From NCBI RefSeq assembly GCF_004103715.1, contig NZ_CP035282.1, forward strand, positions 3,496,501-3,560,500: DNA of 64,000 nt, given 5' to 3'. The DNA comes from Acidilutibacter cellobiosedens. Lineage in GTDB: Bacteria; Bacillota; Clostridia; Tissierellales; Acidilutibacteraceae. The notes beneath the pieces were generated by a model. The model made no database searches. It was not told the origin of the DNA and saw only the letters and a program-made list of their open reading frames with translations. Of this stretch, positions 38,144 through 47,463 are shown piece by piece (the first letter of the stretch is position 1; every line of letters begins with the position of its first letter). Both the position numbers and the translations under genes were made by a program.

Positions 38144-39052
38144 TTAATAAGGATAGACTATTTCTTCTTTCGGTTTATCCGTAGGTTCAATGCTTTCCAC
38201 TTTTATAATCGGATTTTTCTCTCCCGCAAAATCATAAGTTTCCAATATTCCTTTAACTTTTACCCATTCTTCCGACTTCAGTTCGGAAGTCTTATCATAC
38301 TGGCATACGATTCCTACAGGCTGCATATCGGCAGCACAGCATACCATCATTAGCCGTGCAACTACAAATTCATTTTCCTTTAAGGATTCATCATCTTTAT
38401 AAACAAATCCCACCATCTCTATATTTTTTCCCTCATATTTCTCAACATCATAATATAATTCCATAATCCAAGGTGCAAAATTACTGTCATCTACAATTAT
38501 GTTATTACCTTCAATTTTCAGTTGTTCCGATCCATAATCCTCTCCGGTGCCGGCAATATTATTTTCATCTGCAGATACATCACCGTTATTTTGAGAAACA
38601 TCCGAATTTGTACCGTTCGTAGTTGTATCGTCGTCAGTAGTTGTATCATCAGCAGTTATATCAATTGTATCATCAGATTTACTATTTGTATTATCCTTAT
38701 AATCGGAGCCATAATTTATTCCGTTCACTCCGTTTCCTTTAATGACCGAAGAACTTAAAACTGCCGTTTTAGGAGGTATAACAAATGACAGAAAAAGCGG
38801 AATTAAAAAAAGAATATATTTTTTTAGGTTCATACCGGGGCCCTTTGTTCTAAAAATTTCTCCTATTGTAAATAATGAAATGGCTATAAATCCGGCTACA
38901 GCAAATTTCATATAAGGTATAATTCTGGGATGAACGTATTTTTTCACATTACCGGTCTTGATTAAAATTATAAAAAATACAGAAAACCCCAAAAAAACTA
39001 TTAATTTAAATATAATTTCTATATTAATCCTATGTTTTCTCATTGTCTTCAT
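38144..39052 (-). CDS. TIGR03943/DUF1980 membrane protein (YcgQ-like)
   Basis: A 302-residue protein that family members pair with a DUF318 permease. Two to three N-terminal hydrophobic helices (about 8-85) are followed by an acidic, Thr/Asp-rich linker (about 125-165). A C-terminal domain carries the family signature VARLMMVCCAADMQPVG and a beta-rich ending. AAGGAGGGAG precedes the ATG. It starts 15 bp after the GTPase-permease fusion gene, so the two are almost surely made together. It closes the metal-homeostasis island; transport of zinc or another metal is inferred from context only. Confidence 0.82.
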   Translation of the reverse strand: MKTMRKHRINIEIIFKLIVFLGFSVFFIILIKTGNVKKYVHPRIIPYMKFAVAGFIAISLFTIGEIFRTKGPGMNLKKYILFLIPLFLSFVIPPKTAVLSSSVIKGNGVNGINYGSDYKDNTNSKSDDTIDITADDTTTDDDTTTNGTNSDVSQNNGDVSADENNIAGTGEDYGSEQLKIEGNNIIVDDSNFAPWIMELYYDVEKYEGKNIEMVGFVYKDDESLKENEFVVARLMMVCCAADMQPVGIVCQYDKTSELKSEEWVKVKGILETYDFAGEKNPIIKVESIEPTDKPKEEIVYPY

Positions 39053-39067
39053 GGAAACTCCCTCCTT

Positions 39068-40684
39068 CTAAAAAAATACCACCTTAGTAAAACACAAAAT
39101 GGAAAATATCAAATTAAACACAATAAAAAATAACTTTATTATAAATCTCTTCTTAAAACTTCCCGAAAGCATAAGCATATTTTTTATATCAGCCATAGGC
39201 CCTAATACCAAGAATCCCAATACAGAAACAATTGGAATCTGCCTTGCAAAACTTCTGGCAATAAAAGCATCCGAAGATGAACATAAAGACAGAACAAATC
39301 CTGCGGCCATCATAATTAATATGAATAATATTTCCTTATTTGTACTTTTAAAAAATATATCCTGGGGAATAAAAGTTTGGGAAATACTTGCAATCAATGC
39401 CCCTATAACCAAAAATCTTCCTGAATTTAAAAACTCTTCCCCTGCATGTCTGAATACTATAACAATTTTATCCCATATCCCGATTTTTGATACATCATAA
39501 CCACTGCAGTATATACAGTTACAAGTGTAATTATCGAAACCGGTAAAAATTGTTTTTTCATCTTCTGGAAAAATCATAAATATAATTCCTGTAAGAATAG
39601 CAACTATTATACCTATTCCTATTCTTAAAGCAACTATTAATTTTTGACCTTGGAAAGCATAAATTGTGGAAGCTATAACTATTGGATTAACTATGGGAGC
39701 CGCCAATAAAAATGTTACTGCAGCATACATGGGAACTCCCTTTTTGATAAGACGGGTAGCTACCGGAACTATAGCACAATCACATACCGGAAACAATAAC
39801 CCACCCAGCGAAGCTACAATAAAAGATAATATCTTACTTTTAGGAAAATATTTAATTATCATTTCTCTTGTGATAACAACCTGTATAATTGAAGATATGA
39901 ACACTCCAATAAGCAAAAATGGAAAGGCCTCTATTAATATACTTGTAAATATTGTACTGATTATTTGAAGTTTGGAGATATCAAAAACTACTCCTTCAGA
40001 TTTTATAAACCTCATAATAGTAAAACTTAAATATATCATTGCAAAAATCAGGAGTATAATTGATAATTTATCTCCCGGATTTTTCTTTTTATTTTTCTGT
40101 TTAAACCTACTATTTTTTATCCCTTCATATTCCGTAAAATCTTTAGGAGTACTGATATTTAATATCTTTCCATACTTATTTATTGCTCTGATCTCTTTCT
40201 TTAAATCCTTAAATTTGTGCAGCAATATTTTATCGGAATAATTCAATACTATTAAATCACTATATAAAATATTCGTTATCATATTCTGTCCTACAATACT
40301 CATAAGGGAATCAAAATTTCTGCAGTCTATCACATTAACAATCGAATTAATGACACAATGCTTTCGTACTTGAAATTTGTCCAGTACATTTAATAAATCT
40401 CTTAAATCAGATATGCCGTTTTCTTCGATAATCATTCGATTAGGTAAAAATTCATTTAAAATTACCATTATATCTTTAATTCTTATCGATTCATCTTTTT
40501 TAAATTTTTTCAAAAGTACATTCTCATTATTTATGAACTCTTTATCTACTTCCTTTTCACCGGTCTCTCTCTGTATAACCGCTACCCGCTCATTAAATTC
40601 CATAGAATTTTTCAAAACTTCATTAATTAAAGAAGTTTTACCCGAACCTAAAAATCCGGTAAAGATATCTATATAAGTAACCAT
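39068..40684 (-). CDS. CobW-type GTPase fused to a DUF318 (YraQ/YcgR) permease
   Basis: A 538-residue fusion. The first 200 or so residues are a G3E GTPase: Walker A FTGFLGSGKTSL, IVNVIDCRNF and a NKxD-like VLNYSDK. The CxCC metal motif of true CobW chaperones is absent, and the Glu-Asn-Glu stretch reads QRETGEKEVD. From about residue 205 on comes an eight- to ten-helix permease with the DUF318 signature FPVCDCAIVPVATRL and AAPIVNPIVIAST. The start is ATG 40684 with AGGTGAGG; GTG 40693 is in that site. The architecture suggests a nucleotide-gated transporter or a fused metal-delivery device. I see no frameshift that could create the fusion artificially. Confidence 0.8.
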   Translation of the reverse strand: MVTYIDIFTGFLGSGKTSLINEVLKNSMEFNERVAVIQRETGEKEVDKEFINNENVLLKKFKKDESIRIKDIMVILNEFLPNRMIIEENGISDLRDLLNVLDKFQVRKHCVINSIVNVIDCRNFDSLMSIVGQNMITNILYSDLIVLNYSDKILLHKFKDLKKEIRAINKYGKILNISTPKDFTEYEGIKNSRFKQKNKKKNPGDKLSIILLIFAMIYLSFTIMRFIKSEGVVFDISKLQIISTIFTSILIEAFPFLLIGVFISSIIQVVITREMIIKYFPKSKILSFIVASLGGLLFPVCDCAIVPVATRLIKKGVPMYAAVTFLLAAPIVNPIVIASTIYAFQGQKLIVALRIGIGIIVAILTGIIFMIFPEDEKTIFTGFDNYTCNCIYCSGYDVSKIGIWDKIVIVFRHAGEEFLNSGRFLVIGALIASISQTFIPQDIFFKSTNKEILFILIMMAAGFVLSLCSSSDAFIARSFARQIPIVSVLGFLVLGPMADIKNMLMLSGSFKKRFIIKLFFIVFNLIFSILCFTKVVFF

Positions 40685-40702: not shown

Positions 40703-41662
40703 TTAAACAGAAAATAATTCAAATAATTTATTTTCGTTAATATTTTTCCCGGTTATCGAAAGTTTGCCTATATAATTGGCAGAAGTAGTTCTTATCTGAA
40801 TTTCTCCAGGAACATAGTCAAATTGTAACCATTTGCCTCTTTCGCTTTGAAGTATTCCTTTACCTCTTACAATCATGCCAAAGCTATCAGCGTCATTTAA
40901 CCGTTTCAACATATTTTTTAATTCTATTTTGTCAAAGATTTTAGCCGTTTCCATACTCCATGTTTTAAATATTTCATCGGCGTCATGGTCGTGATCATGA
41001 TCGTGGTCATGGTCATGACCATGTTTTTCTTCATGATTACAATTTTCTCCATGTATATGTTCTATATGGCCTTCTCCCAATCCGATAATTTGCTCTCCAG
41101 TAAGCTGAGCCCAAGGAGTAGTCACAATATCGTATTTAAAATTTAAATTTCGTATGGATTTTATAACAGAGCTGATCTTCTCCTCATCAACCACATCTGT
41201 TCTGCTCAAAAGTATTACTTTGGCATTTTTTATTTGGTCTTCGAAAAATTCACCAAAATTATTTAAATACAAATCAAATTTTAAGACATCCACTATTGTT
41301 ACAATCATATTAACTTCAACTAAATCCCTCAAGTTATTTTCCCTGCAAGCCCTAATCAATTCCGAAAGCTTTGCTACTCCCGAAGGTTCTACTATTATCC
41401 TTTGAGGACTAAACTTGTCTATTATTTCTCTTACGGATTCTCCAAAATCTCCGGCAAGGCTACAACAAATGCATCCGGAATTTATTTCTTTAATCTCTAA
41501 TCCGGCTCTTTTAAGTAATGTTCCGTCTATACCAATTTCTCCAAATTCATTTTCTATAATCGCTATTTTTTCACTGTCTAATTTTTCCTTAAGAAGTTTT
41601 TTAATTAATGTAGTTTTTCCGGCTCCTAAAAAACCAGAAACAATATCAATTTTTACCTTCAT
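40703..41662 (-). CDS. CobW-family zinc metallochaperone GTPase with His-Asp repeat
   Basis: About 319 residues. Walker A is SGFLGAGKTTL, followed by IENEFGEIGID and the metal-binding GCICCSLAG (the CxCC motif). A low-complexity HGHDHDHDHDHDHD stretch at about residues 219-232 can bind zinc or nickel; a CobW C-terminal domain follows. The start is ATG 41662, which overlaps the end of the Fur-family gene by 17 bp; the longer frame to 41794 runs antisense-free through that gene and is not credible. In context, it probably delivers zinc to client proteins when zinc is scarce. Confidence 0.87.
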   Translation of the reverse strand: MKVKIDIVSGFLGAGKTTLIKKLLKEKLDSEKIAIIENEFGEIGIDGTLLKRAGLEIKEINSGCICCSLAGDFGESVREIIDKFSPQRIIVEPSGVAKLSELIRACRENNLRDLVEVNMIVTIVDVLKFDLYLNNFGEFFEDQIKNAKVILLSRTDVVDEEKISSVIKSIRNLNFKYDIVTTPWAQLTGEQIIGLGEGHIEHIHGENCNHEEKHGHDHDHDHDHDHDADEIFKTWSMETAKIFDKIELKNMLKRLNDADSFGMIVRGKGILQSERGKWLQFDYVPGEIQIRTTSANYIGKLSITGKNINENKLFELFSV

Positions 41663-42116
41663 TAACTCCATCCCCCTTTTTATCTCCCTTACATTCAGAA
41701 CAGTATCCAAATATTTCAAGATGATGACCCATAATATCAAAATCAGTAGTATTCTCAATAAACTTTTCATAGTCACCCAAAGGGCAACCTTCAATAGGAA
41801 TCATTTTTTTACATTTTAAGCATATAAGATAATGTTTATGCCCTACGGTTTTCAGTTCAAAAACTGCTTCATCACTATTCATAATATTTAATTTAACAAC
41901 TATCCCCTTTGATTCAAAAACATTGAGTATTCTATATATAGTCGAAAAATTAATAGAATCGTCCATATTTTTGGCCCTAAAAAAAATTTCTTTTGAAGTA
42001 AGAGGATATTCCGCCTTTTTCAGTATATCCAATACGACATTTCTCTGTTTAGTATTTTTTATCTTAAAATAACTAAAAATTTCTTTATTTTCAAATTGCT
42101 TCAATCCGATCATCAT
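41646..42116 (-). CDS. Fur-family metalloregulator, probably Zur
   Basis: A 156-residue Fur-superfamily repressor. The winged helix is in the first 85 residues (LTSKEIFFRAKNMDDSINFSTIYR). Metal-binding residues are HKHY (His93, His95), CLKC (Cys99, Cys102), two histidines at 131-132 and GYCSEC (Cys139, Cys142), giving the structural zinc site. Position between znuACB and CobW genes argues for a zinc-sensing Zur. It could also be the iron sensor for the Fur-like box at 47464. The next gene starts within its last codons. Confidence 0.87.
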   Translation of the reverse strand: MMIGLKQFENKEIFSYFKIKNTKQRNVVLDILKKAEYPLTSKEIFFRAKNMDDSINFSTIYRILNVFESKGIVVKLNIMNSDEAVFELKTVGHKHYLICLKCKKMIPIEGCPLGDYEKFIENTTDFDIMGHHLEIFGYCSECKGDKKGDGVNEGKN

Positions 42117-42213: not shown

Positions 42214-43050
42214 CTAATTATTCGATTTTGTATGTTTTTTTAAAAAGATATATTTTAGAACGTCCTTATAAAAAATAACAATTATTAAAATTGCAATTCC
42301 AATTAACACTATTGTACCACCCGGTTTAAAATTTGCATAATAAGATATATATAATCCTGAAATAGTAGAAAAAACAGCAAAAATTATGGAAAGAATTACA
42401 GTCTGTTTATAGCTTTTAGTAATCTGCATAGCAGATGCCACCGGGAGTACTATAAGGGAAGATATAACTAATGTACCAACTGCTCTTGAGGATATAGAAA
42501 TAGTAATGGCAGTAAGAAGAGTAAATACAAAATTTATTGACTTAACAGGAACTCCTGAAAATTTTGCAGATTCTTCATCAAAAGTCGTATAAAATAATTC
42601 CTTATATAATAATATAAAAACAAAAATAACCAAAACACTTAACCCAATAACCATAAAAAGTTCAAAATCAGTAATAGCTACAATACTTCCAAAAAGAAAA
42701 CTGTTAAGGCTGGCGGCATTCTTTACAAACCCCGATAAAATACCGGCAATTCCAACTCCCATAGATGTAATTACAGCTATTGATATTTCTGAATATCTGG
42801 GAAAAGACTTTCTTATTCTTTCCATTCCAAAAGCCGACATTATTGAAAAAATTACAGCCGATGCAATAGGATTAATTCCAAAAGCCAAGCCGGCAGTTAC
42901 ACCGGCCAAAGAAGAATGAGAAAGAGCATCGCCAATCATGGACATCCTTTTTAGAACCACTATTACTCCAATACAAGGTGTAATTACTGAAATCAAAATT
43001 CCGACAATAAAAGCTCTTTGCATAAAAGAATATTGAAAAATACTAATCAA
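42214..43050 (-). CDS. znuB: Zinc/manganese ABC transporter permease (ZnuB-like)
   Basis: A 278-residue permease of the ABC-3 family with about seven to eight helices. The family segments include PCIGVIVVLKRMSMIGDALSHSSLAGV, given here only as a landmark (residues 20-45), and RAVGTLVISSLIVLPVASA. TTG 43050, six bases after GGTGGG, is preferred; the open frame extends to 43080 into znuC. It is the last gene of znuACB. Confidence 0.88.
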   Translation of the reverse strand: MISIFQYSFMQRAFIVGILISVITPCIGVIVVLKRMSMIGDALSHSSLAGVTAGLAFGINPIASAVIFSIMSAFGMERIRKSFPRYSEISIAVITSMGVGIAGILSGFVKNAASLNSFLFGSIVAITDFELFMVIGLSVLVIFVFILLYKELFYTTFDEESAKFSGVPVKSINFVFTLLTAITISISSRAVGTLVISSLIVLPVASAMQITKSYKQTVILSIIFAVFSTISGLYISYYANFKPGGTIVLIGIAILIIVIFYKDVLKYIFLKKHTKSNN

Positions 43051-43051
43051 C

Positions 43052-43804
43052 TCAATCCCACCTTTTATCTTTAAAATCAATTAAACTCTGTCCGTATATT
43101 TCCTTTAAAATATCTTCCGTCATGCCGTTTTTTAAATCCTGTTCGAGTAACCCATTTTTCCCTAAACAGATAATTCTATTTGCAATATGTGATATTTGAA
43201 AAATATCATGAGTGATCAGTATTATCGTCAACCCATGATTTCGATTTAAATCGGTAAGAAGAGAATACACTGTTTCTTCAGATTTAGCATCAATGCCTAC
43301 AGTGGATTCATCCAAGAATAAAATTTCAGGGTTGTTGATTAATGCCTTTGCAATAAATACCCTTTGAAGTTCTCCGCCGGATAAATTCCCTATAAGGATT
43401 TTTCTATAACCCTCCATGCCTACTTTCTCCAATATCTGATACACCATTTCTTTATGGCATTTCTTAGGCCTTTTAAAAAGACCAATCTGAGAAAAAAGGT
43501 TGGCTTCAACAACTTCTTCAACAGTAGTCGGAAAACTACTGTTGAAGAAGTTCAGTTTCTGAGAAATATAGCTTATTTTGTTCCAGCTCTTTATATCCTC
43601 TATATTCTGTCCAAACATCTTTATGTTACCGCTCAAAGGAGTTAATATTTTTAGCATCAATTTCATAAGGGTACTTTTACCGGAACCATTAGCTCCGATT
43701 ATGCCCAAAAAATCCCCTCTTCTTACCGAAAAACTTACGTCCTTTAATATAAACTTCTCCCCATACCCAAAACTTAAGTTGTTTACTTCGATTATGTTAT
43801 CCAT
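43052..43804 (-). CDS. znuC: Zinc ABC transporter ATP-binding protein (ZnuC-like)
   Basis: A 250-residue ATPase powering ZnuB. Walker A GANGSGKST, Q-loop ISQKL, signature LSGGELQRVFIAKA, Walker B ILFLDESTVGID and switch His in ITHDI are present. The stop lies just before the znuB start and the gene begins 16 bp after znuA. Manganese cannot be excluded by sequence, but the Fur/CobW neighbours favour zinc. Confidence 0.9.
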   Translation of the reverse strand: MDNIIEVNNLSFGYGEKFILKDVSFSVRRGDFLGIIGANGSGKSTLMKLMLKILTPLSGNIKMFGQNIEDIKSWNKISYISQKLNFFNSSFPTTVEEVVEANLFSQIGLFKRPKKCHKEMVYQILEKVGMEGYRKILIGNLSGGELQRVFIAKALINNPEILFLDESTVGIDAKSEETVYSLLTDLNRNHGLTIILITHDIFQISHIANRIICLGKNGLLEQDLKNGMTEDILKEIYGQSLIDFKDKRWD

Positions 43805-43820
43805 TGCTACAATTTTCCTT

Positions 43821-44780
43821 TCACTGTAACGCTTTTTTAAGTACCTCCAAATTTTCTTTCATTACGGAAATATATTCTTTTCCCGCCTTTATATCATCAT
43901 CCTCCAAACCTTCCAATGGGTTAAGAACTTCTGTCTGTGCCCCTACTTCTTGAGCTATGGTCTCAGCGACTTTAGGGCTTACCAATTCTTCAAAAAATAT
44001 ATATTTTACATCATGTTCCTTTGCAAATTTTACTATCTCCGCCATTTTAGCCGGTGAAGGTTCGGCATCAGCAGTCAACCCCTCAATGGGAGTTTGCTTT
44101 AATCCGTAGGCATCGCACAAATATCCGAATGCCTGATGAGATACAATAATCTCTTTCTTCGTAAATGTAGCCACAGCGTCTTTATATTCTTGGTCCAACT
44201 CATCCAATTGTTTTACATATTCTTCATAATTTTTTTCATAATAATCCTTATTCGTTTCATCAGCTTTAACAAGTGCATCCTTTATAATTTCCATTTGTTT
44301 TTTGGCATTCATCGGATTGAGCCATACATGAGGATCATACTTTAAATTTTCATCCTCTTCATGTCCCTCTAATAGCTTTATATCTTTAGAAGTATCAACA
44401 ATAACCAATTTATCATTATCCAAAGATCCGGATATTTTATCCAGCCATCCTTCCATTCCCGCACCGTTGCAAATAAGTAGATCCGCTTTTTCAAGGTTTG
44501 CAATATCTTTAGGAGTCGGTTCCCAGTCATGGGGTTCTACCCCTGAAGGGACTAAATTCACCAAATTTATTTTATCTCCTCCTACTTTCTTTGTTAAATC
44601 ATACATTGCATAAAAGCTTGCATAGACCGAAAGTTTTTTGTTCCCATTATTATCATTTGTATTTTGTGTAACTTCACCTGTCTTTCCTTTGTCATCTTGT
44701 TTGCCGCAACCTGAAAACAACATCAAACCCATCACTATTGCCATTATTAAGCACAAAATTTTAATATTAAACTTTTTCAT
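43821..44780 (-). CDS. znuA: Zinc-binding lipoprotein (ZnuA/AdcA-type SBP)
   Basis: A 319-residue cluster A-I solute-binding lipoprotein that captures metal outside the cell. The signal peptide ends with the lipobox LFSGC. Metal-ligand histidines appear in GVEPHDWEP, the YDPHVWLNP segment and IVSHQAFGYLC. The acidic-histidine loop EGHEEDEN is short. A candidate repressor operator lies 26-50 bp upstream of the start codon. It is first in znuACB. Confidence 0.9.
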   Translation of the reverse strand: MKKFNIKILCLIMAIVMGLMLFSGCGKQDDKGKTGEVTQNTNDNNGNKKLSVYASFYAMYDLTKKVGGDKINLVNLVPSGVEPHDWEPTPKDIANLEKADLLICNGAGMEGWLDKISGSLDNDKLVIVDTSKDIKLLEGHEEDENLKYDPHVWLNPMNAKKQMEIIKDALVKADETNKDYYEKNYEEYVKQLDELDQEYKDAVATFTKKEIIVSHQAFGYLCDAYGLKQTPIEGLTADAEPSPAKMAEIVKFAKEHDVKYIFFEELVSPKVAETIAQEVGAQTEVLNPLEGLEDDDIKAGKEYISVMKENLEVLKKALQ

Positions 44781-44805: not shown

Positions 44806-44830
44806 AATACAAATGCGTCCCATTTGCATT
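44806..44830. promoter_or_regulatory. Candidate Zur operator before znuA
   Basis: AATACAAATG and CATTTGCATT are complementary arms (one mismatch) separated by CGTCC, centred about 38 bp upstream of the znuA start. Position and symmetry suggest a Fur/Zur-family operator, although it does not match the Bacillus Zur consensus. Confidence 0.55.
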
Positions 44831-44893: not shown

Positions 44894-45604
44894 TTAGAAT
44901 ACAAACTCCCCTTCTATTGTTTTCTTCAATTTATCTAATTCTTCTTTATTTTTTATTCTGTCTTCTAAAGAAAGACGATTTTTTATAATCCTTTGCACTT
45001 TAGTAGGTTTTTGGGTAAATATAGTAATATTATCTCCAAGGATTGCTGCTTCTTCAATATCATGAGTTACAATGATACATGTTTTATCTCTCGATTTTTT
45101 TAAATTCAAAAAAAATTTTGTAACAACTTCTTTAGTATTGATATCTAAAGATTTAAAAGGTTCATCCATTATAAGTATCTCCGAAGGATATATGAAAGCC
45201 CTTAATATACTGATTCTTTGTTTCATTCCTCCGCTTAAACTATTCGGATAATAGTCTTTATAATATTCCAATCCTACTAAATTTAAATATTTATTTATAA
45301 TCTCCCTCCTGTTTTTTTTATCAATTTTTCCTCTTATAACAAAATCTATATTATCATAAACACTTTTCCATGGAATAAGCCTATCTTCCTGAAAAACAAA
45401 TCCAATATTTTCATTTTCAAATCCAATCACTTTACCTTTATCAGCAGGAAGCATGCCGGATATGATATTAAGCAAAGTGGTTTTGCCACAACCGGACGGG
45501 CCTAATATACATGTAGTCATATTCTTTTCAAACTTAATGCTTACATCATCTAATACTTTTAAATCTCCATAACTTTTATGTATATTGCTAACCTCATATC
45601 CCAC
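44894..45604 (-). CDS. ABC transporter ATP-binding protein (SsuB/TauB/NrtD type)
   Basis: A 236-residue ATPase. Walker A GPSGCGKTTL, FVFQEDRLIPWKSV around the Q-loop, signature LSGGMKQRISILRA, Walker B ILIMDEPFKSLD and switch His in VTHDIEEA. It lies 4 bp after the permease gene, completing a three-gene SsuABC-like set. Position next to znuA suggests a metal or metallophore substrate rather than a sulfonate, but this is inference. Confidence 0.88.
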   Translation of the reverse strand: MGYEVSNIHKSYGDLKVLDDVSIKFEKNMTTCILGPSGCGKTTLLNIISGMLPADKGKVIGFENENIGFVFQEDRLIPWKSVYDNIDFVIRGKIDKKNRREIINKYLNLVGLEYYKDYYPNSLSGGMKQRISILRAFIYPSEILIMDEPFKSLDINTKEVVTKFFLNLKKSRDKTCIIVTHDIEEAAILGDNITIFTQKPTKVQRIIKNRLSLEDRIKNKEELDKLKKTIEGEFVF

Positions 45605-45608
45605 ATTA

Positions 45609-46367
45609 TCACTTCCATTTATTATTTCCGATTAATTTTCCCAAAAAGCTTAATACATAATCAAAAACATTTATAATCACTAATATAATTATAATCCACG
45701 CAAACACTCCCGGCGTATTGAGGTACATTTTTTGAAGCTGCAAGCTACTGCCTATGCCGTATTTAGGTTGGCCTAATACTTCTCCTCCTATTACCATCTT
45801 TAAACTGAGCCCCAATGTAGAAGTTAATACAGAATTAATATTAAAAAAAATGCTTGGAACATATATCTCTCTGACCATTGTAATTGTATCCACCTTATAC
45901 AGCTTTGACATCTCAACTATTTTAAAATCTATATTTGATATGCCCTTTAGAACACTTTCATACAATATTGGAAATACCATAATAAATCCTACAAATACAG
46001 GTGCCGCTTCATTGGTAAGCCATATAAGTGCCAATATAATAATAGCCATAGTTGGTACTGATTTTAAAAATTTTAATACAGGACTCATTATATAATATAC
46101 AGCTTTAAATATATAAGATAAAATACCCAATATTATTGCCGATATTAAAGAAATTAAGAAGCTTGCAAGGCTTCTTAATAATGTAGATTTTACGGTATTG
46201 ATGAAATATTCCTCTTTCACTATATCTGTTAAACTAATAAAAGTATTTTTAATAGAAGGAATTATCACTTCATTATTTACATATTTTGACGCGATTATCC
46301 AAACAAGCAGAATAGATAATCCCGAAATAATAAAATATTTCCTATCTTTCAAAATACAACCCTTCAT
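45609..46367 (-). CDS. ABC transporter permease (SsuC/TauC type)
   Basis: A 252-residue inner membrane permease with about six helices. The ABC-coupling loop is near EMSKLYKVDTITMVREIYVP, followed by GLSLKMVIGGEVLG, typical of the nitrate/sulfonate/taurine family. The start overlaps the end of the binding-protein gene by 26 bp if ATG 46367 is used; TTG 46352 is a good alternative with AAGGG upstream. The trio acts as one transporter. Confidence 0.85.
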   Translation of the reverse strand: MKGCILKDRKYFIISGLSILLVWIIASKYVNNEVIIPSIKNTFISLTDIVKEEYFINTVKSTLLRSLASFLISLISAIILGILSYIFKAVYYIMSPVLKFLKSVPTMAIIILALIWLTNEAAPVFVGFIMVFPILYESVLKGISNIDFKIVEMSKLYKVDTITMVREIYVPSIFFNINSVLTSTLGLSLKMVIGGEVLGQPKYGIGSSLQLQKMYLNTPGVFAWIIIILVIINVFDYVLSFLGKLIGNNKWK

Positions 46368-47355
46368 CAGGTAATTTTCCTCCTATAGTTTTAGGTTCAA
46401 AATTCATTAATACTTCATAATATTTTTCATATGCATCTTTACAATCTTTTGTTTCAGTAAACCTAATATTAAGTTTTTCTTTTGCATTAACTATTGCATT
46501 TTTTTCAACACTTATTCCCAATTCTTTTGCATAATCTCCCAATTGTCCTAAGTTTCCCATTGCCCAATCCGAACTCTCTTTATATTTTTCTAAAAATTTA
46601 CTCACAAATTCCGGATCGTCTTTTATTAAATCTTCTTTAATTATTAAACTTGATTGAGGATATCCTTCATCAATCCCTGTTAAGTTTGCCCATTCCTTGT
46701 TTAAATCAAAAATTACTTTTGCATTCTCTTTCTTTGTAAGTATTGTAGTAGCTAAAGGTTCCGGCAAAACCGCTAAATTTGTTTTCCCGCTAAGAAAGGC
46801 CGGTCCTAATTCCGTAGCCGCATTTAAGTAAGTGATAGTTACATCTTTATCCGGATCTATACCATTTTCAGATAAAACATATCTTAAAACTATATCCGGA
46901 GTTAAGCCTTTTCCAATAGAATATATCTCTTTTCCCTTTAAATCTTCAAAAGAATTTATTTCTTCAGTACTTATCATATACAAGGAACCCCATGTAGACG
47001 TTCCGGCTAATCTATAAGCCATACCCTTATTAAAAGCCTGAGCCGCTAAGTTGGAAGGAACTATGGCTATATCTGGTTCCCCTTTTAAAATACTTGATAC
47101 AAGTACATCGGGAGCTTTCAAAAGCTCATAATTTATAGTTACATTTTTATCTACAGCTGGATTCTCTTTATCAAGCTTTGCAGCCGTTAAAGCCGGAAGA
47201 CCATCAGGAAAACTGAATTTCAGGGTTTTAGGCTGCTCCTGCTCTTCTTTAGGGGCTGTTGAAACTTCATCCCCTGCATTTTTATTGCTGCATCCGGAAA
47301 CTATTGATAATATTAAAACTAAACTTAAAATTAACAAAAAGAATTTCTTTTTCAT
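46342..47355 (-). CDS. ABC transporter substrate-binding lipoprotein (SsuA/THI5-like)
   Basis: A 337-residue secreted lipoprotein. The signal peptide ends in the lipobox SIVSGC. The mature part has the NMT1/SsuA-like fold pattern: PDVLVSSILKGEPDIAIVPS, LAGTSTWGSLYMIS and TNLAVLPEPLATTIL. ATG 47355 follows AGAGGTGA; GTG 47367 lies in that site. A strong Fur-box-like site lies about 110 bp upstream, so the transporter is probably metal-regulated. Ligand unknown: sulfonates, thiamine precursors and metallophores are all possible. Confidence 0.85.
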   Translation of the reverse strand: MKKKFFLLILSLVLILSIVSGCSNKNAGDEVSTAPKEEQEQPKTLKFSFPDGLPALTAAKLDKENPAVDKNVTINYELLKAPDVLVSSILKGEPDIAIVPSNLAAQAFNKGMAYRLAGTSTWGSLYMISTEEINSFEDLKGKEIYSIGKGLTPDIVLRYVLSENGIDPDKDVTITYLNAATELGPAFLSGKTNLAVLPEPLATTILTKKENAKVIFDLNKEWANLTGIDEGYPQSSLIIKEDLIKDDPEFVSKFLEKYKESSDWAMGNLGQLGDYAKELGISVEKNAIVNAKEKLNIRFTETKDCKDAYEKYYEVLMNFEPKTIGGKLPDEGLYFER

Positions 47356-47463
47356 TACCAAAATCACCTCTTAGAAATTTTTGATATAAAATACCCTATA
47401 ACAAATTACTCATAAATATTATACCATCTATTTTTATATATAAATCATTTTTTATGTTATTAT

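Follow-up and report, generated by a model that had tools for sequence, protein, structure and literature searches.

A GTPase family without CxCC, often fused to an ArsP_1 permease and apparently paired with CobW in zinc gene clusters of Clostridia

Introduction

How COG0523 GTPases find their targets and hand over metal is an open question. According to Haas 2009 (PMC2770081) all COG0523 members have CXCC, and PMC9164220 likewise characterises the family by CxCC; the words permease, fusion and fused are absent from the main text of the former. Here we describe a gene of Acidilutibacter cellobiosedens in which a G3E GTPase domain without CxCC is fused to an ArsP_1 (DUF318) permease. By sequence comparison the domain belongs to a widespread family of its own. 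Its pairing with a CxCC-bearing CobW appears near-obligate, and the fusion hints at a way in which CobW proteins might be docked to the membrane. The gene lies in a stretch of 64,000 nucleotides (assembly GCF_004103715.1, contig NZ_CP035282.1, positions 3,496,501 to 3,560,500 of the forward strand), here called the window; coordinates below are window positions unless a genome or locus handle is given.

FeoB has a GTPase and a metal permease in one joined architecture, and its G domain is Ras-like (TRAFAC). The fusion described here similarly has an N-terminal GTPase joined to a permease, for a presumed metal substrate, but gives no match to FeoB_N at E 0.01. YcgR and YcgQ (ScfA/ScfB), which we take to be DUF318 and TIGR03943 members, are the same kind of two-gene permease pair as in our locus. 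PMC5584981 names that pair ScfAB, gives its function as unknown and, in its available text, describes no GTPase with it. In Bacillus anthracis the ArsP_1 permease gene BAS1632 lies beside BAS1633 (yciC), a COG0523 gene, with Zur bound at a shared upstream region, and activation of the permease gene was inferred from the position of the box (PMC6336718); these are separate genes, and no GTPase lacking CxCC is described with them in the available text. IcmF, a MeaB-type G3E chaperone fused to a mutase, is cited in PMC9164220, which also describes FeoB and shows HypB as a dimer; there too a G3E chaperone GTPase is fused to its client, but the client is a soluble enzyme and the cargo adenosylcobalamin. 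The nearest relatives are the COG0523/CobW chaperones themselves (ZagA/YciC, ZigA, YjiA), which share with the fused GTPase the G3E fold, the P-loop, the zinc-cluster context and a sister position in trees, whereas the fused GTPase lacks CxCC and CobW_C, has E-x-N-G in place of EPSG, and is fused to a permease or to DUF1980_C. The signal recognition particle (SRP) GTPases Ffh and FtsY, a SIMIBI pair of which one is soluble with cargo and one sits at the membrane, serve us as a working analogy.

We found no description of this GTPase-permease fusion in the literature searched, a scope that leaves out most subscription papers. As far as searched, four things are apparently new: the family of partner GTPases, the signature that marks it, the near-obligate association with CobW, and the second fusion type described below. 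Neither YcgR nor G3E appears in the main text of the Zur review PMC6103462. A CobW-related selenoprotein and SO_0444-family selenoproteins are listed in PMC13188914.

The fusion protein

The gene (39068 to 40684, minus strand; open reading frame (ORF) analysis, Pfam, AlphaFold2) starts with ATG at 40684 and runs to 39068 with no internal stop, encoding 538 residues in the one continuous frame that a sequence-only reading of the window, which gave no strand, had claimed. That reading's division into a CobW-like GTPase and a DUF318 permease agrees with Pfam, since residues 7 to 174 match cobW (PF02492, 75.7 bits against a cut-off of 20.7) and residues 241 to 527 match ArsP_1 (PF03773, 218.2 bits against 32.3). 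CobW_C (PF07683) gave no match in the fusion at E 0.01; the permease follows the GTPase domain instead. The GTPase domain (residues 1 to 190; 40115 to 40684, minus strand), delimited by the cobW match and by structural matches, contains a Walker A motif, GFLGSGKT (residues 10 to 17; 40634 to 40657, minus strand), that is intact in the alignment as had been stated. It also contains EENG (residues 87 to 90; 40415 to 40426, minus strand), an instance of the E-x-N-G family signature that replaces the EPSG of CobW. CxCC is indeed missing from this GTPase part, while the adjacent stand-alone CobW (40703 to 41662) has GCICC. A weaker detail of that reading is the 'NKxD-like' LNYSDK, which is not conserved; the position varies in the family, and the stand-alone CobW has SRTD there.

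The AlphaFold2 model of the fusion has a pLDDT of 86.3 and a pTM of 0.71. Among the structure-search matches listed, which cover the GTPase domain or the OB-like domain discussed below only, those of the GTPase domain are HypB, YjiA, UreG, MeaB and Ffh/FtsY, and include 4xc6, 4xc7 and 4xc8 (IcmF). Superposition on HypB (Z 15.8, rmsd 3.1, 178 aligned) indicates a SIMIBI/G3E fold; the values for YjiA are VIA Z 15.5, rmsd 3.6 and 205 aligned, and for FtsY VIA Z 14.0, rmsd 3.5 and 174 aligned.

The genome to which the window belongs (a single contig, 3.74 Mb) holds one such fusion. An assembly or indel join was considered as its origin and is ruled out, as is chance, because independent genomes carry the same fusion, with identities of about 30-55%. 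Nor are the relatives all plain two-gene operons, although split forms exist (nine loci).

A GTPase family without CxCC

The domain without CxCC was taken from 88 fused ORFs, nine split loci and 20 loci of the second fusion type (type II), 117 in all, and aligned jointly with 101 CobW sequences (81 and 20). Cys at the three CxCC positions was found in no fused (0/88), split (0/9) or type II (0/20) domain, against all neighbouring CobW (81/81 and 20/20); five more CobW ORFs that were incomplete in the first loci carry CxCC once taken whole (5/5). E-x-N is present in 117/117 domains without CxCC and in 0/101 CobW, and the full E-x-N-G in 114/117; at this position CobW has EPSG (98), EPTG (2) or EASG (1). 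The P-loop Lys is kept in 117/117 (GKT in 113, GKS in 4), as are the switch Glu and the switch Gly. Because these residues and E-x-N are kept throughout, the domain looks like a specialised NTPase and not a decayed one. The NKxD base-specificity position varies among the domains without CxCC, and the neighbouring CobW mostly carry an SRTQ/E/D-like sequence there, so that neither can be assumed to be specific for GTP.

In trees of chosen representatives the fused and split domains form one clade (SH-aLRT 97; 51 rows, type II left aside), as do the fused, split and type II domains together (SH-aLRT 96; 66 rows). The sister of this clade is the zinc-cluster CobW group, and other COG0523 proteins fall outside both. 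Among the rows taken as outgroup, two relatives from the same order came out within the CobW group. The COG0523 protein encoded beside one type II gene (L224) was placed among the other COG0523. A distinct G3E family is thus well supported by sequence comparison: it would derive from a COG0523/CobW-like ancestor, having lost CxCC, gained E-x-N(-G) and kept the P-loop. Absence of CxCC together with E-x-N-G offers a diagnostic for such proteins, which would count as CobW-like on a cobW Pfam match, in gene clusters of many Clostridia.

Distribution and architectures

Searching databases for the same fusion and its neighbours, as the sequence-only reading had proposed, gave 88 distinct fused ORFs, the one in the window included (loci L034-L152). 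The scan of named genomes gave at least 558 relatives, of which we took the 80 best; a first contig scan with a single-protein query matched no relative, but an alignment query did. Clostridia account for most of the ORFs; a few come from bins labelled Synergistaceae, Anaerolineaceae or Desulfocapsaceae, labels that can be wrong. Their typical setting is a znuA-znuC-znuB-fur-cobW-fusion-TIGR03943 cluster or parts of one. In a set of 41 genomes, that of the window and 40 more from its order, full fusions occur in the window's genome and five others, namely G017, G021 (two copies), G027, G029 and G040; the entire cluster from znuA to TIGR03943 is kept in G040, G021 and G027. The G027 copy (L037:6458-8083) has an in-frame TGA at codon 350, considered as a possible selenocysteine codon and aligned with non-Cys residues, which may be an assembly error, a broken gene or recoding. 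In a class sample of 391 genomes, 28 match the fusion profile at E 1e-40, and 19 of these carry the fusion by ORF analysis.

Three architectures hold the GTPase. In type I, as in the window, it is fused to the permease and followed by TIGR03943. In the split form, seen in Clostridium including C. beijerinckii, cobW is followed by a separate GTPase gene (about 210 residues) and the permease gene, and in seven of nine loci, the other two being short, by TIGR03943. In type II, first noticed in Lacrimispora, the GTPase without CxCC is fused to DUF1980_C in a protein of about 320 residues, with a hydrophobic stretch of membrane-helix length in 0/20. Type II occurs in 75 of the 391 class genomes (81 matched, of which five are type I only and one partial). 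We also found 11 permease-only loci, which have the permease without the GTPase.

The GTPase tree places type II beside fusions whose permeases, by pattern search, lack the CxC loop and CS[ST]SD. A type I operon that lost its permease together with the membrane helices of TIGR03943 would yield type II in a single step. An order of fission and fusion events, read from a smaller GTPase tree in which the split forms were nested among the fused ones, was dropped: the larger GTPase tree leaves the split clade unplaced, and permease trees put the split and permease-only forms partly outside and partly within the fused forms.

Some observations belong with these architectures. The fusions whose permeases lack the two patterns are L051-L056 and L058-L060; most retain PVCDC, and in the GTPase tree three lie closest to type II. 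Downstream of the type II gene of Lacrimispora (L174:3063-4028) come genes for a Cache hybrid kinase, a CitMHS transporter and a response regulator. Some Clostridium genomes (G425, with L176 and L177, and G423) hold several sets, with split cobW-GTPase-permease operons and a fused copy without its own CobW.

Pairing with CobW

Neighbours were counted within 6 kb of 78 distinct fusions that had at least 1300 bases upstream and at least 1000 downstream. CobW was found near 69 of them, TIGR03943 near all 78, Fur near 29, ZnuA near 33 and ZnuB near 37. With at least 4500 bases upstream (57 fusions) the counts are 50, 57, 18, 30 and 31 in the same order; the full zinc cluster around the fusion is common and far from universal. 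CobW is present at 9/9 split loci and at 0/11 permease-only loci, a count that omits two further 'permease' ORFs that are the halves of the G027 copy.

Of the type II loci we chose 20 (L209-L228, 10.8-12 kb each), and a CxCC-bearing COG0523 gene adjoins type II in all 20, 19 of the zinc-CobW type and one other COG0523, while no ArsP_1 permease, ZnuA or ZnuB lies within the 10.8-12 kb examined. In the 75 type II genomes CobW is found at E 1e-45 in 71, and within 2 kb in 68; in three of the other four it is adjacent, and in one it is a fragment at a contig end.

Over the 391-genome sample, 95 genomes bear a partner GTPase and 89 of these have CobW at E 1e-45; seven have CobW alone and 289 neither (Fisher's p 1.5e-71, a value that ignores relatedness). 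All six partner-bearing genomes below the cut-off show CobW on a looser search, four with an adjacent CobW that has CxCC (G064, G284, G348, G401), one with a fragment next to the partner where the contig ends (G325) and one with a fragment on another contig (G326).

Twelve distinct fusions have no CobW in their examined stretch. A close CobW (E 1e-98 to 9e-55) lies elsewhere in 8/8 of their genomes that were searched, and stands alone in G181 and on one contig of G423. Among the remaining four, CobW lies immediately upstream of the fusion in L070, and for L049 there is only a fragment, on a different contig; L141 and L144 fall outside the search. Conversely, nine of the 11 permease-only genomes, two of them less than 90% complete, gave no CobW match at E 1e-3, and G352 and G432 gave weak matches (2e-26 and 1e-18).

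Permease, TIGR03943 and possible metal sites

The permease part (residues 203 to 538; 39068 to 40078, minus strand) consists by Pfam, model and hhalign of two homologous halves (hhalign probability 96.5, E 7.5e-10). The CDC signature of the sequence-only reading is present as PVCDC (residues 299 to 303; 39776 to 39790, minus strand) at the helix break of half 1. It aligns with CSSSD (residues 468 to 472; 39269 to 39283, minus strand) at the corresponding break of half 2; in the AlphaFold2 model both stand at breaks between helices, an arrangement that transporters often use to hold an ion. The halves are joined by a Cys loop, CNCIYC (residues 388 to 393; 39506 to 39523, minus strand), of which C388 and C390 are nearly invariant in a 71-row alignment. 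This CNCxxC loop, modelled with low confidence, is probably cytoplasmic by the positive-inside rule.

A His-rich loop between the halves (at least four His) is found in 8/10 permease-only proteins against 0/61 fused ones (61 parsed of 88; p 8e-10, uncorrected for relatedness) and 0/7 split ones. The C-terminal part of CobW has a median of 39 His next to type II (n=19) against 6 next to type I or split forms (n=78). Taken together, these counts suggest that a segment for collecting metal is carried by one of the two, the permease or CobW.

The TIGR03943/DUF1980 gene (38144 to 39052, minus strand) encodes, by domain matches, topology and structure, a permease-associated subunit with three predicted transmembrane (TM) helices and an OB-like domain bearing CCxxD. 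The motif is kept in 102/102 family members, within the OB-like domain, whose best structural match (VIA Z 9.3, rmsd 2.7, 91 aligned) is only modestly above background. Three TM helices are predicted in 71/102, which would put the C-terminal DUF1980_C outside.

Proposed mechanism

The family, its pairing with CobW and its gene context are well supported. As to function, we give about an even chance to the GTPase without CxCC being a dedicated partner that couples the CxCC-bearing CobW to the ArsP_1 permease and TIGR03943 in the zinc cluster. CobW would bind zinc at its CxCC and pair at the membrane with the partner, SIMIBI-type as in HypB or Ffh/FtsY; nucleotide turnover would then time the release of the metal between CobW and the permease, at the Cys sites of the latter (the CNCxxC loop, PVCDC and CSSSD), in zinc shortage. 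The permease, or DUF1980_C in type II, would be what the partner brings CobW to. A composite dimer of CobW and partner would be the most economical mechanism by analogy, because G3E relatives dimerise and the closest folds include HypB, YjiA, UreG, MeaB and FtsY/Ffh. The direct heterodimer, the transfer of metal, zinc as the substrate, the direction of transport and control by Zur are all presumed in this scheme, and the direction is its weakest step. An apparently dedicated partner joined to a permease or an OB-like domain makes the docking question testable with two or three proteins.

Several points weigh against this coupling. Contact between CobW and its partner, GTP hydrolysis and metal binding are presumptions. 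CobW occurs without a partner in seven of the 391 genomes, and where a fusion has its CobW elsewhere in the genome, that CobW often adjoins another partner copy (G425, G428, G429, G430) and need not serve the fusion. Independent contrasts on the permease tree are few; the four well-supported ones are all concordant, a number too small for significance (p 0.125). Type II has no permease nearby, which means that the partner can do without coupling to one, and DUF1980_C is predicted outside in type I, yet lies within a soluble protein in type II. Two literature findings taken up below, the role of SO_0444 in metal stress and the inferred activation by Zur in B. anthracis, also count on this side.

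A bolder form of the partner reading, plausible but on balance doubtful, is that CobW has given rise to a second system like SRP and its receptor, in which a soluble metal-carrying GTPase and a membrane-tethered sister without the metal site form a heterodimer that delivers zinc to a transporter, the DUF1980_C form, common in Clostridia, being the same pair with another client. The division of labour between a metal-carrying CobW and a GTPase without CxCC, suggested in the sequence-only reading, holds in outline, given the CxCC counts, the near-obligate pairing and the zinc-cluster setting.

That reading had also suggested that the GTPase may gate the transporter, and a FeoB-like regulator, in which the fused GTPase alone opens and closes the permease by its nucleotide cycle while CobW only distributes imported zinc, is an unlikely alternative. 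FeoB is a precedent for a metal permease with a GTPase (PMC9164220), the P-loop Lys and E-x-N are invariant in our sample, and seven well-flanked fusion loci have no CobW nearby, the distant CobW having its own partner in several such genomes. The partner nevertheless tracks CobW rather than the permease, as the type II loci (20/20 beside a CxCC COG0523, 0/20 beside a permease) and the type II genomes (71/75 with CobW, 68 within 2 kb) attest, and permeases exist without any GTPase (11 loci). Because the soluble type II form occurs in 75/391 genomes with no ArsP_1 nearby at the 20 loci, gating of the permease cannot be the whole function of the GTPase; a role as docking or hand-over partner to CobW is the better fit.

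We consider an exporter or membrane metallation device similarly improbable; in it CobW and the fused GTPase would send zinc out by way of the permease, either for TIGR03943 and extracytoplasmic enzymes or to detoxify metal. Such export is in keeping with SO_0444, for which Cu/Zn efflux was proposed and which is needed in Zn and Cu stress (PMC3219624), a distant relative only, as the fusion scores 86.2 bits against NF033936 (SO_0444 Cu/Zn efflux transporter), under the equivalog cut-off of 300. The CCxxD domain of TIGR03943 is predicted outside, and the Zur of B. anthracis is inferred to activate its ArsP_1 permease gene (PMC6336718), which would imply expression at high zinc, the opposite of an importer induced by starvation. 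On the other side, znuABC and a Fur-family gene are often linked to the cluster, with an operator-like palindrome in common, and detoxification would be an odd function for an operon that also encodes a zinc importer; metallation directed outward during starvation may be compatible with this linkage.

That the fused domain is a decaying CobW copy, a mere tether or stabiliser of the permease with no GTP turnover, is very improbable, for although CxCC and CobW_C are lost, the NKxD position varies and the end branches in trees are long, the P-loop Lys, switch Glu/Gly and E-x-N are kept in 117/117 and the domain survives without the permease.

Zinc gene cluster and regulation

On the minus strand of the window the gene order is znuA, znuC, znuB, a Fur-family gene, cobW, the fusion and TIGR03943/DUF1980. 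By Pfam matches the first three encode a ZnuA zinc-binding lipoprotein (43821 to 44780; PF01297, 311 bits), a ZnuC-like ATPase (43052 to 43804) and a ZnuB-like ABC-3 permease (42214 to 43080). The Fur-family regulator (41646 to 42116; PF01475, 80 bits) is probably Zur; it reaches no NCBIfam equivalog cut-off. The stand-alone CobW (COG0523; Pfam and motif inspection) carries a His-rich stretch besides its GCICC, scores 19.4 against CobW_C (PF07683), under the cut-off of 22, and ends 18 bases before the start of the fusion.

A candidate Zur operator, the palindrome GCAAATG-N5-CATTTG, lies upstream of znuA (44810 to 44827, minus strand). With one mismatch allowed it has seven matches at six sites in the genome, against one for the reversed control. 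One, with one mismatch, lies about 150 bases upstream of another COG0523 gene of this genome (G000:C1:2958316-2959449; L185, L004) and one inside cobW itself (40819 to 40836); not all sites look meaningful. In 70 cluster upstream regions, some of them near relatives of one another, AAATGN5CATTT occurs in 11, where random stretches give 3 of 1400, and AATGCN9GCATT in 10, where they give 7 of 1400; either occurs in 19, leaving 51 without an exact match. The palindrome was read from six promoters, of which four (L073, L076, L090, L037) are among the 70 regions; without those four the counts are 10 and 7 of 66, 15 regions in all. A Bacillus-type Zur box was found at three or fewer mismatches in none of nine upstream regions. 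The palindrome fits a candidate Fur-family operator, and the cluster is probably under Zur control.

A NitT/TauT-like ABC transporter (44894 to 47367) adjoins the zinc cluster; one is also found near the cluster in Tissierella praeacuta (L035:13662-16067), at 57-60% identity, and perhaps the substrate is metal-related.

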